Of a stretch of 41,449 bases of DNA, positions 38,451 through 41,449 are shown piece after piece. Every line of letters begins with the position of its first letter. Position 1 is the stretch's first letter. Made by a program: the position numbers and the translations under genes. The notes beneath the pieces were generated by a model. The model did not search any database. It saw nothing but the letters and a program-made list of their open reading frames with translations, and was not told the DNA's origin. This stretch comes from Candidatus Peregrinibacteria bacterium (GTDB taxonomy: Bacteria > Patescibacteriota > Gracilibacteria > UBA1369 > JABINC01). The stretch covers positions 1 through 41,449 of the forward strand of contig JABINC010000043.1 in NCBI GenBank assembly GCA_018697675.1. The letters are read 5' to 3'.

Positions 38451-39482
38451 ATGCTCAAATATAAAGATTTAATTGAGGTTCTTAAAAATGCCGGCTATCC
38501 GAAGTTTCGGGCGGAGCAGGTTTTTCAAGCTGTGTATAAAAAAGGGGGGAATGATTATGAAAATATTTCTACTTTGCCTGGGGAATTGAAAGAGTTTTTG
38601 AAAGAAAATGTGCCTGTGTATTCGTTTGGAGTCGGGAATAGGATGGTTTCGAAAATTGATGGGACTCAGAAGGTTCTGTTTGAATTGTGTGATGGCAAAA
38701 AGGTCGAGGCGGTCCTAATGCGCTATAGTGATAAGACCGGGAAGCGGAATACTGTTTGTGTTTCTTCTCAAGTTGGTTGCGCCCTCAAATGTGCTTTTTG
38801 TGCGACTGGGAAGCTCGGGTTTAGTCGAGATTTAACTGCGGAGGAGATTGCGGATCAGGTTCTTTATTTTGATCATATTTTGAAGGCTGAAGAAGAGCGG
38901 GTGACGAATGTTGTGTACATGGGGATGGGGGAGCCATTTTTGAATTATGATAAAGTAATGAAATCTGTTCGAATTTTGAATGATGAAAAATGTTTAAATA
39001 TCGCAGCTCGTGGGATTACTGTTTCAACTTCGGGAGTTATTGAAGGGATTGAGAAATTTTCTGAAGAGAATTTACAAGTGAATTTGGCGGTATCTCTACA
39101 TGTACCAACGCAAGATGGGAGGGCGGAAATTATGCCAATTGCACGAGCAAATAGTTTGGATAAATTGATGGAATCTTTGGATGATTATGTGTTTCGTACA
39201 AATCGGCGAGTTTCTTATGAATATGTCCTTCTTAAGGGTGTGAATGATGGGGTTGAGGATGCGAGGGATTTGGCTGAATTATTGCAGGGAAGACTATGTC
39301 ATGTGAACTTGATTCAATATAATGAGACTGGGCTTCCTTTTAAAAAAAGTGGGAAATCGGAAGGTGAAAAGTTTTTGGAGATTTTGGAGGGTTCTGGAGT
39401 GCCGGTAAGTTTGCGAATTAGCCGTGGCCAAGATATTTTCGGAGCCTGCGGACAGTTGGCTGGGAAAGAAAATGCTGGATAG
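38451..39482 (+). CDS. rlmN: 23S rRNA/tRNA adenine-C2 methyltransferase RlmN
   Basis: This 343-residue radical-SAM enzyme methylates C2 of A2503 in 23S rRNA and A37 in some tRNAs. The 4Fe-4S motif CxxxCxxC is GCALKCAFCATGKLGF at about residue 111. Both catalytic Cys residues are in place, one in VCVSSQVGC before the cluster region and one in IFGACGQLAG near the C terminus. Other family motifs are VYMGMGEPFLNYD, VSTSGVIEGI, AVSLHVP and YVLLKGVND. Length is normal for the family. It starts 17 bases after the ATPase gene and is probably co-transcribed with it. Confidence 0.95.
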   Translation: MLKYKDLIEVLKNAGYPKFRAEQVFQAVYKKGGNDYENISTLPGELKEFLKENVPVYSFGVGNRMVSKIDGTQKVLFELCDGKKVEAVLMRYSDKTGKRNTVCVSSQVGCALKCAFCATGKLGFSRDLTAEEIADQVLYFDHILKAEEERVTNVVYMGMGEPFLNYDKVMKSVRILNDEKCLNIAARGITVSTSGVIEGIEKFSEENLQVNLAVSLHVPTQDGRAEIMPIARANSLDKLMESLDDYVFRTNRRVSYEYVLLKGVNDGVEDARDLAELLQGRLCHVNLIQYNETGLPFKKSGKSEGEKFLEILEGSGVPVSLRISRGQDIFGACGQLAGKENAG

Positions 39483-39563: not shown

Positions 39564-39656
39564 GGAGAGTTACCCAAGTGGCTGAAGGGGCGGCTTTGCT
39601 AAAGCTGTAGTGGGATGTAAATCCCAGCGGGGGTTCGAATCCCCCACTCTCCGCCA
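39564..39656 (+). tRNA. tRNA-Ser(GCT), CCA encoded
   Basis: The acceptor stem pairs GGAGAGT (39564-39570) with ACTCTCC (39646-39652), followed by discriminator G and an encoded CCA (39654-39656). The anticodon arm is CGGCT-TTGCTAA-AGCTG with anticodon GCT, reading AGC and AGT serine codons. A long variable arm (GTGGGA-TGTAAA-TCCCAG-like) marks a class II tRNA. The T arm is GGGGG-TTCGAAT-CCCCC. The serine recombinase on the opposite strand runs into it. Confidence 0.96.
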
Positions 39657-41246
39657 TCTTAGACGAATACTCTCCAAATGAGCACTTCTGTCTATTTGGC
39701 ATGCGCCTTCCGCTGGTTCGAAGCTCAGGTATTCTTTTTCAAGCTGTTTATACTCTTCTCCGATTGGGACGAGCCACTCGTGCGGAAGCATCTCTAGTTT
39801 CTTGTCCTTTATAAAAAAGTTCGAACCAAATCCCGATAGTATATTTCTCTTTTCTTCAAAACTACCATTGTCATAATGATGAGCTGAATAGGTGATAAAA
39901 CTAAAAGTCTTCTCCGTAAGCTCAAACCAATTCTTTGCACGCCTCTCCGTATCGCCAAGTTGCTCCTTCAGCTTTTCAAGTTTTTCAACAAGCTCCTTCT
40001 TTTGCCTTTTGTACTCATCCTCACCAATCAACTCCCGATAGCACATCTTCGTAAGATTATCTATTTCCGTCTGTGTAGTAAGCACAGCTCTACTCTGCAT
40101 CTTGTTAATATCAGTCCGCTGCTTTATTTCACTGTCATTGTGCTTATTGAGCATTTCAATAGCCCAATCTTTAAACTGAGGAAGGATAGTATACTGATCC
40201 ATTTCAGCTTTCATCATTTTTTTAAGTTCACGCTCTTCTATAGAACCCTGCTTACAATCTTTGTCTTTGTTATGCGTACAGTGATATAAAGTGTACTCTT
40301 TGCTCTCTCCACTTTTGAGCTTCTTTTTCTTGTATTCAGCCGTCACATGCCCTTCACAATCCCCACAAATAAGAAGTGGTTTGAAGCAAAAGTCATACTG
40401 CTGCGCACGTGGATTACCTTTTTTCCCTAACATTCTCTGCACTCTATCAAACTCCTCCAAAGTGACCATAGTGTCATGAGCACCCTTAGTCCAAGTATCA
40501 TCTTGCTGCTTAATTAGCCCAGCATAGAACTTATTATTGAACATCATATAAATACCACTACGACTCATAGGCTTACCTCCAGCTCTCTTTGTTTTGCGAG
40601 TCCTATACCCCCAATCGTCATTTAGTTTTTTCAAAATCTGTGGAGGTGTGTAGTTCCCAGTAAGCATTAAATCCCAACACTTTCTGAGAACAGGAAATCT
40701 TTTTTTATCAATGCTGATGGTCTTCATCCCCTTTGGACTCACGTAATCATTCAACCACCCTTGTGGGGCTTTATTAGGACGAATACCCATCTGGAGCTTT
40801 GTGCCTAAACCACGTTTGACATCTTTACTAAGTTTTGAAGAGAAGTACTGAGATTGAGACAAAGCCATTTGTAACATCATGATCCCCTCGGGGGAGTGGT
40901 CAAAATTGTATGAGCCAAACTTCAAATCTTTAATTACTCCTGTACGAAGAAGATATGTAATGGTTGCAGCATCAATTTCATTTCTTGAAAGTCTATCTGG
41001 ATGCCATGCAACAATCCCGTCCGCTTCTCCGTCCCTAATACGTTGAATCAAGCTTGGGAATTTCACTCTTTCATAAGGCTTAAATGCACTTTTACTCTCT
41101 TCAATCACTTCAACAATCTTAATATTTGGAAAGACTGCCTTGATTTTGTCTTTTTGAGAGCCAATAGAGAGAATCTGTCGTTCCTCTGATTCCTCCGACT
41201 TTCGTGCGTATAGAAAGTATCTGTAATGTGATGTGTCTTCGTTCAT
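39570..41246 (-). CDS. Large serine recombinase (site-specific integrase)
   Basis: I take the ATG at 41246 (MNEDTSHYRYFLYARKS), about 558 residues; an open frame continues up to 41366 but the extra residues lack family character. The resolvase domain has the catalytic Ser in YARKSEESEERQILSIGSQ and the active-site Arg motif WHPDRLSRNEIDA. A recombinase domain follows (GWLNDY; MSRSGIYMMFNNKFYAGL), then a zinc ribbon (LLICGDCEGHV ... YHCTHNKDKDC) and a coiled coil (about LTKMCYRELIGEDEYKRQKK onward). It integrates or excises the element by cutting att sites via a Ser-DNA link. The last 28 codons are antisense to the tRNA-Ser gene (ending at a TAA at 39572-39570), so the true C terminus in the circular form may differ. 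Confidence 0.88.
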   Translation of the reverse strand: MNEDTSHYRYFLYARKSEESEERQILSIGSQKDKIKAVFPNIKIVEVIEESKSAFKPYERVKFPSLIQRIRDGEADGIVAWHPDRLSRNEIDAATITYLLRTGVIKDLKFGSYNFDHSPEGIMMLQMALSQSQYFSSKLSKDVKRGLGTKLQMGIRPNKAPQGWLNDYVSPKGMKTISIDKKRFPVLRKCWDLMLTGNYTPPQILKKLNDDWGYRTRKTKRAGGKPMSRSGIYMMFNNKFYAGLIKQQDDTWTKGAHDTMVTLEEFDRVQRMLGKKGNPRAQQYDFCFKPLLICGDCEGHVTAEYKKKKLKSGESKEYTLYHCTHNKDKDCKQGSIEERELKKMMKAEMDQYTILPQFKDWAIEMLNKHNDSEIKQRTDINKMQSRAVLTTQTEIDNLTKMCYRELIGEDEYKRQKKELVEKLEKLKEQLGDTERRAKNWFELTEKTFSFITYSAHHYDNGSFEEKRNILSGFGSNFFIKDKKLEMLPHEWLVPIGEEYKQLEKEYLSFEPAEGACQIDRSAHLESIRLRWRRVGDSNPRWDLHPTTALAKPPLQPLG

Positions 41247-41449
41247 TGCTTTGAGGTTAAACACCCAAATAGGATGGTTCTGAATCATCCAACTCAGTTG
41301 CACGAAGCAATGACTTTGGCAGAACCACCCACAATTGGGCGACAAAGCGAAACGCTGTTCGTACAAACAAGCCGAGTTAGATGATTAACTTGATTATAGA
41401 TAACTTGATTGGAAAATTCCAGTAATTTTGCCTACTGCTTCTTACTTAC
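39657..41449. mobile_element. Left end of an element integrated at tRNA-Ser, continuing past the window
   Basis: A large serine recombinase lies immediately downstream of an intact tRNA-Ser and points toward it, the usual layout for elements that insert at a tRNA 3' end. ACTCTCC of the acceptor stem (39646-39652) recurs at 39669-39675. An inverted repeat, CCAAAT (39674-39679) with ATTTGG (39694-39699), lies just inside. The far att site is not in the window. Bases 41367-41449 hold no recognisable gene. Confidence 0.55.

Follow-up and report, generated by a model that had tools for sequence, protein, structure and literature searches.

The window, which is the whole stretch of 41,449 nt analysed here, is contig C38 of a 1.46-Mb genome in 76 contigs. 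It carries the gene of a large serine recombinase (LSR), which begins at ATG 41246 or TTG 41366, runs against a tRNA-Ser(GCT) gene and stops inside it, at 39570-39572 (Table 1). The last 84 nt before the stop (39573-39656) are antisense tRNA and give the 28 codons WRRVGDSNPRWDLHPTTALAKPPLQPLG. The preliminary description had claimed this fusion of recombinase and antisense tRNA-Ser, and the claim held. Resolvase, Recombinase and Zn_ribbon_recom domains are found in the LSR, all above the Pfam gathering scores. Its residue S17 is conserved at 90% or more in alignment A1; the serine at this place near the LSR N-terminus is the catalytic one. We take the gene at the host side of attL to be that of an rlmN-like radical-SAM methyltransferase. 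Only 203 nt separate the LSR ATG from the end of the contig upstream of it. With a 93-nt query no second copy of tRNA-Ser(GCT) was found in the genome, and the other matches called as tRNA are different tRNAs.

Table 1. Positions of the recombinase, the tRNA and the attachment-site parts in the window
Feature	Positions	Strand	Remark
Chromosomal gene 5' of the tRNA	38451-39482	+	Host side of attL
tRNA-Ser(GCT)	39564-39656	+	attB target
LSR, integrated-state reading	39570-41246	-	558 codons and stop
tRNA-derived C-terminal tail of the LSR (28 codons) and stop	39570-39656	-	
TCGAAC, antisense T-loop	39633-39638	-	+18 from core T; proposed zinc-ribbon contact, B' half-site
attL core TGGCGGAGAGT	39646-39656	-	Antisense of the CCA end, the discriminator and the beginning of the acceptor stem; second copy at attR, G000:C24:3490 (-)
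P arm, last element-encoded LSR codons	39657-39740	-	
LSR leader with long inverted repeat	41247-41449	-	
Last codons (VSKKQ, stop) of the tyrosine-recombinase gene running off contig C24	41432-41449	-	Join of the contigs unproven

The repeat ACTCTCC, noted earlier 23 bases past the acceptor stem, does exist (39646 and 39669), but is irrelevant: it is missing in the nearest relative, L012, and was rejected as the att repeat in favour of the 11-bp core. The LSR leader, in the window and in L012, L026, L027 and L030, has a long inverted repeat and pseudoknot-like pairs, which by eye seem to covary (e.g. GGGCGGTTCTG / CAGGACCGTCC). No Rfam family was found in the leader.

The displaced C-terminal end in the same genome

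The far att site, which the preliminary description had proposed to look for, was found in the same genome on contig C24. There TGGCGGAGAGT appears as at attL and is followed in the LSR frame by WRRVVDDVRTAIEEHNTEFNVFAKMVLNKGYTAPNMT and a stop. Across the 1.46 Mb of the genome TGGCGG-N18-V-GAAC is matched only once, at C24:3462-3490 on the minus strand, where the sequence is TGGCGGAGAGTCGTGGACGATGTTCGAACC onward. The reversed control pattern likewise has one match, and the weight of the C24 match comes from its similarity to the attR of genome G001 (locus L012) and from synteny. The two tails are identical in 67 of 93 nt and in 21 of 31 residues, with 7 synonymous and 10 nonsynonymous codon differences, so that constraint on the protein is suggested, not proven. 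On the host side the C24 attR is flanked by a gene, which we take to be that of an S41-type peptidase. In a congener its homologue, 74% identical in DNA over 271 nt, is found at about 0.9 kb from the same tRNA. On the element side C24 breaks off within a tyrosine recombinase, 392 residues of which match that of the G001 element at 77%. The displaced tail is thus shown, and very likely WRRVVDDVRTAIEEHNTEFNVFAKMVLNKGYTAPNMT is the native C-terminus of the LSR, severed by integration.

The end of C24 (GCCGTAAGT) and the start of the window contig on that strand (GTAAGTAAGAAGCAGTAG) are in frame and have GTAAGT in common. C24 and C38 appear to abut inside one tyrosine-recombinase frame, the join being unproven; if joined, they give an element of about 5.28 kb (3490 + 1793 - 6). 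In the window element (G000:C24), as in that of its nearest relative (L065), the gene immediately upstream of the LSR is that of a tyrosine recombinase. In L058 and L061 an ORF of 60-75 aa just upstream of the LSR possibly encodes a directionality factor. Two C24 frames had a reverse-transcriptase/DGR look, which Pfam did not support.

The LSR is predicted to have 558 aa in the integrated state and 567 aa on the circle. After integration 530 of the predicted 567 codons remain together and the last 37 go to attR. The earlier suggestion that integration gave the recombinase a new C-terminus is supported by the displaced end at the far att site, by comparable sites in six other genomes and by intact C-termini in three relatives. 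The suggested change of protein length is predicted too but is slight; it is the sequence and the predicted fold that change instead. Control of excision by the change of tail, proposed at the same time, stays an inference.

Recombinase frames ending in antisense tRNA and their far sites

The comparison of related recombinase C-termini, also proposed earlier, was run and the same tRNA arrangement proved common. A first search gave 26 relatives, mostly Patescibacteria, and ARAGORN called a tRNA at the LSR 3' end in 23 of them. These 23 and the window have one register: TGG (the complement of CCA; or CTG or ATG), then the T-loop as GAT-TCG-AAC. The survey comprised set A (the window and L012-L036, 26 loci), set B (L135-L163, 29 loci, window excluded), set C (the next 40 profile matches after set B, two contig-edge matches being skipped) and set D (21 other LSR matches, chosen by hand). 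Sets B and C come from an LSR profile search of 379 genomes of the phylum, 173 of which had a match at E 1e-60. The LSR overlaps an antisense tRNA in 24/26, 24/29, 35/40 and 13/21 loci of sets A to D, i.e. it ends in the adjacent antisense tRNA in 48/55 loci of sets A and B and in 83/95 of sets A to C. The conserved codon register is shown: it is identical in 24/24, 24/24, 28/35 and 10/13 of these overlaps, respectively, when the start of the motif match is corrected by one base for L033, L149 and L175 (GTCGAAC).

Twelve isotypes occur among the 48 same-register overlaps of sets A and B, and 17 in sets A to C (Ser, Lys, Gln, Trp, Asn, Asp, Gly, His, Phe, Arg, Met, Tyr, Leu, Glu, Ala, Pro, Val). 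Duplicates make up 5 of the 96 overlapping tails of all sets; L135 is the same locus as L015. The tRNA tails vary in length and sequence, and some stop 4-5 codons into the tRNA. Some loci counted as lacking the overlap are additional cases: in set C an LSR of the same profile (L191, 371-757) ends in antisense tmRNA, and in L139 (set B) and L050 (set D) the frame enters tRNA-like codons beside a group I intron (all by Rfam). Six loci were left unresolved (L137, L144, L159, L172, L193, L194). The phage and plasmid relatives of the recombinase are distant.

Several side observations were made in these loci. In L144 the frame crosses a whole antisense tRNA-Phe and continues for about 300 more codons, an open frame of 858 aa; in L132 it enters a tRNA interrupted by a group I intron (by eye). 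Inovirus-like modules lie beside some LSRs, with Zot in L131 (Pfam) and Zot and Rep in L061, L112 and L132 (tblastn to L131). In 11 of 40 set C loci and in 14 of about 66 plus-strand matches (counted by eye) the contig breaks off 10-460 nt before the LSR begins, as it does in the window, which suggests repeats or population variation there.

Three relatives read beyond TGG into codons that are not tRNA and reach their own stops. L131, an IMG/VR contig that carries genes for Zot, a G2P-type Rep and ArdC and is thus inovirus-like, ends in WLHELYIFRTL, L147 in WGRIVCDVRTEMILQV and L187 in WRRVWDALGTFFAQVPNQFLV. For attR sites, 21 long stretches were scanned with the attL core + N18 + [ACG]GAAC, giving 11 matches against 0.84 expected with shuffled cores. 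Nine sites in six genomes were accepted, all upstream of the LSR and in direct orientation: one in G001 (WRRVVDDVRTLIEANH, 11.5 kb from attL), three in G012 (8.6-10.9 kb), one each in G022, G009 and G017, and two in G006 (19 and 71 kb). The two other matches (G006 at 32 kb; G012b) were judged chance. The scan gave no accepted site in 7 of the 13 long set A stretches, and for one of these, G021, the attR was found via an 18-bp repeat 12.86 kb away, beside the displaced terminator (terminator by eye). In the relative G447 this terminator and tRNA-Gly are contiguous (74% over 191 nt), an empty site for the G021 element, although the block has the opposite orientation with respect to the gene that follows. 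G006 has a 15-bp repeat of the tRNA end. Long tRNA-end repeats as far att sites were found in G021, G006 and few others. The shortness of the shared core (5-7 bp in set C) explains why they are mostly absent; the search for core and spaced GAAC succeeded. We at first took the G021 and G006 repeats to mean a crossover at the T-loop, but now place it at the tRNA 3' end.

We also note several attR-type remnants near one tRNA, three in L067/G012:C17, and three displaced tRNA-Ser ends with terminators in L099/G006, as in repeated integrations.

Twin attP copies, T-loop spacing and terminators

Of 28 set C loci examined, 19 have a second, inverted copy of the LSR 3' end, about 75-150 bp long, upstream of the gene, the match in L184 being weak. 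No such copy was found in 58 loci of sets A, B and IMG, for which the upstream sequence is often short. Past the core the inverted copies encode W-x(7)-R-T tails with stops, e.g. WLSLLNEIRTYYQQNPD and WWCLLEKVRTFYQQNPDAD. Four set C elements show the entire unit, core-P'-cargo-inverted(P'-core-P)-LSR-P-core-tRNA, in which inverted P arms flank the gene and inverted P' arms flank the cargo. The units are 3.47 kb (G244, on one 1.05-Mb contig), 4.09, 6.97 and 2.62 kb long; in the last one (L187/G393) the DNA beyond the LSR end is not tRNA. Within the four units the copies are 97-100% identical over P arms of 78-135 bp and P' arms of 36-107 bp. Such twin-attP elements (2.6-7 kb) are L238 (G244:C1), L241, L245 and L247, and also L170, L173, L175, L186, L190, L201 and others. 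We infer that the circle would hold two inverted attP sites and that the LSR would keep its native tail if the other one were used.

Counted from the T of TGG, the GAAC of P' lies at +24/25 in 14 of the 17 inverted copies of set C that were mapped correctly (not in L183, L192 and L198), and the T-loop GAAC of the tRNA at +20. The 17 copies were found without using the GAAC motif; L181 (unmapped) and L184 (mis-mapped) are left out. In the window element TCGAAC moves to +23 in attR/P'. The set A attR scan required GAAC at +25, so that only set C and the intact attP cases give independent evidence of the spacing. In serine integrases the zinc-ribbon motifs lie 5 bp nearer the centre in attB than in attP (PMC3783163). 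As GAAC is similarly about 5 bp further out in the native tails, the LSR probably reads the universal T-loop, which is an inference. We consider it likely that the T-loop (GTTCGA) is recognised by the zinc-ribbon domain and that P' mimics it about 5 bp further out, which would make nearly any tRNA usable. The shift is seen for one half-site only, the P arm being without a mirror motif there (by eye).

AlphaFold models suggest a difference between the tails. The window LSR (24-sequence alignment) has a helix at 517-532 and pLDDT below 50 for 534-558, nearly the whole tRNA tail, while L147 with its native tail has a helix at 520-547, the last blocks scoring 93 and 82. As the pTM values are modest (0.42 and 0.46), only the local contrast is used: the native tail of L147 is predicted to form a terminal helix and the tRNA tail of the window to be disordered.

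Directly beyond the tRNA, within the LSR codons, the tRNA strand scores as a strong intrinsic terminator in 16/21, 15/23, 5/34 and 3/12 cases of sets A to D, against 2, 3, 1 and 1 on the other strand of the segment and 5/210, 8/230, 5/340 and 3/120 in shuffles (unique tails; some omitted for length or N). Hence, many elements of sets A and B carry, inside the recombinase gene, a substitute for the displaced terminator of the tRNA. The window P arm has no strong terminator (score 10), only a weak one. Loose terminator presence was discarded as uninformative (71/81 real against 63% of shuffles); only the strong score discriminates.

Proposed mechanism, alternatives and known systems

We suggest that the recombinase gene and attP overlap. 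In the circular element the ORF would consist of the P arm, the core (TGGCGG...), the P' arm and the native end ...WRRVVDDVRT... with its stop. The enzyme would recombine attP with the 3' end of the tRNA gene; attL would fuse the recombinase gene to antisense tRNA, giving a new tail and stop, and attR would take away the last 37 codons. With the loss of the terminal helix the integrated enzyme would be weakened or altered, integration would be self-limiting, and excision would need an intact copy or a directionality factor. That tails are exchanged by integration at the tRNA is very likely. The effect of helix loss on the enzyme, and the self-limitation, are inferred without activity data, and here we lean slightly towards doubt. 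As the tails vary and some comprise only 4-5 tRNA codons, the new tail may have no function of its own. For the whole explanation, with tail exchange, T-loop reading and self-limitation, we give a probability of about 0.6.

The strongest alternative is neutral overlap, in which the gene's 3' end houses attP merely for compactness and the exchange of tails has no effect. The variable, sometimes very short tRNA tails speak for it, as do the intact catalytic, Recombinase and zinc-ribbon domains, and McMurdie et al. gave a similar trivial reading for DsiB (PMC3146451). However, native tails recur in many genomes with W-x(7)-[RG]-T and their own stops, the two species compared above keep most tail residues alike (21/31), and the L147 tail is predicted to fold as a continuous helix. 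We place neutral overlap somewhat below an even chance. The native tail might instead be a degradation tag, so that integration stabilises the recombinase rather than cripples it. Mycobacteriophage repressors with attP in the ORF, whose 3' tag is removed by integration (PMC9934374), offer a parallel, but the native tails end diversely (PNMT, VRGF, STLA, NPD) with no common degron by eye, and this is unlikely. Chance or an annotation artefact, i.e. an ORF that just stays open into the antisense tRNA, could find support in the other register of 7/35 overlaps in set C and 3/13 in set D. It is all but excluded by the single register of 48/48 overlaps over 12 isotypes in sets A and B and by the displaced C-termini at attR.

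Tail exchange with self-limitation, the reading preferred here, can be extended. In a bolder form, serine integrases throughout the Patescibacteria would read the universal T-loop and so be able to move among almost all tRNA genes, and the enzyme itself would record the integration state: an intact terminal helix on the circle and a host tRNA tail when integrated. In one subfamily the second, inverted attP would allow the opposite gene orientation with the native tail kept, a two-state switch. Taken jointly, these claims may as well fail as hold.

Precedents are real. DsiB of the Dehalococcoides ssrA genomic islands (McMurdie et al. 2011, PMC3146451) is a 540-residue serine recombinase, the 3' end of which always lies over attL at the RNA gene; its stop is outside the island, and the authors suggested that full function may be limited to the circular form. 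The window LSR likewise crosses attL, stops in an RNA gene and is similar in size. However, DsiB is CcrB-like, uses only tmRNA and has a small partner, DsiA, and its displaced C-terminus is not identified in the relevant sections of that paper, whereas the Patescibacteria LSRs occur at 17 tRNA isotypes and one tmRNA, with displaced native tails and the inferred T-loop mimicry; homology to DsiB is not established. The integrase of the Ralstonia filamentous phages phiRSM is a serine recombinase acting at the 3' end of tRNA-Ser with the 13-bp core TGGCGGAGAGGGT (PMC4471427, PMC3816273). This core is almost that of the window, and some window relatives are inovirus-like too. Unlike the window LSR, the phiRSM integrase is small and resolvase-like, its attP lies between orf14 and orf15, and no exchange of its C-terminus is described in the relevant sections. 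The same literature describes C-terminal truncation of the phiRSS0 repressor ORF13 upon integration. An IMG/VR scan found eight matches to a phiRSM-type attP, but in no case did a long open recombinase frame precede the match. In Mycobacterium, AICEs with a serine recombinase reside in tRNA-Leu and such a tRNA target was called rare (PMC3218068); one isotype is used there, and gene overlap is not described in the relevant sections.

The att site inside the integrase gene is shared with the archaeal suicidal integrases, tyrosine recombinases whose product is altered by integration (PMC8371274); Mx8 and SSV integrases also extend across attP (PMC4383910). However, suicidal integrases are partitioned and perhaps inactive once integrated, while the window LSR keeps its catalytic and DNA-binding domains and exchanges only its end, so that the gene is not split into substantial parts (530/567 predicted codons stay together). 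In mycobacteriophage integration-dependent immunity, attP lies in an ORF and removal of the 3' end serves as a switch (PMC9934374); there the exchanged gene is a repressor and the lost end a degradation tag, and here the gene is a recombinase. Further related literature is available (PMC12884075, PMC5704250, PMC13059738, PMC6813254, PMC11476347). In the open-licence literature that was searched we found no description of this LSR family or of displaced LSR C-termini in Patescibacteria; the phylum-wide scale, the recovered displaced tails and the T-loop spacing appear to be new.

LSRs at tRNA genes are the rule among the Patescibacteria loci examined, and T-loop reading would be a simple explanation for the use of 17 isotypes by one family. 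Enzymes that read the T-loop, if this is true, would offer a common landing site. The two natural versions of one protein make it testable how a serine integrase avoids undoing its own integration. Elsewhere in the window, at 12749-34745, about ten ORFs of 525-561 aa form a run on one strand and are possibly paralogues.
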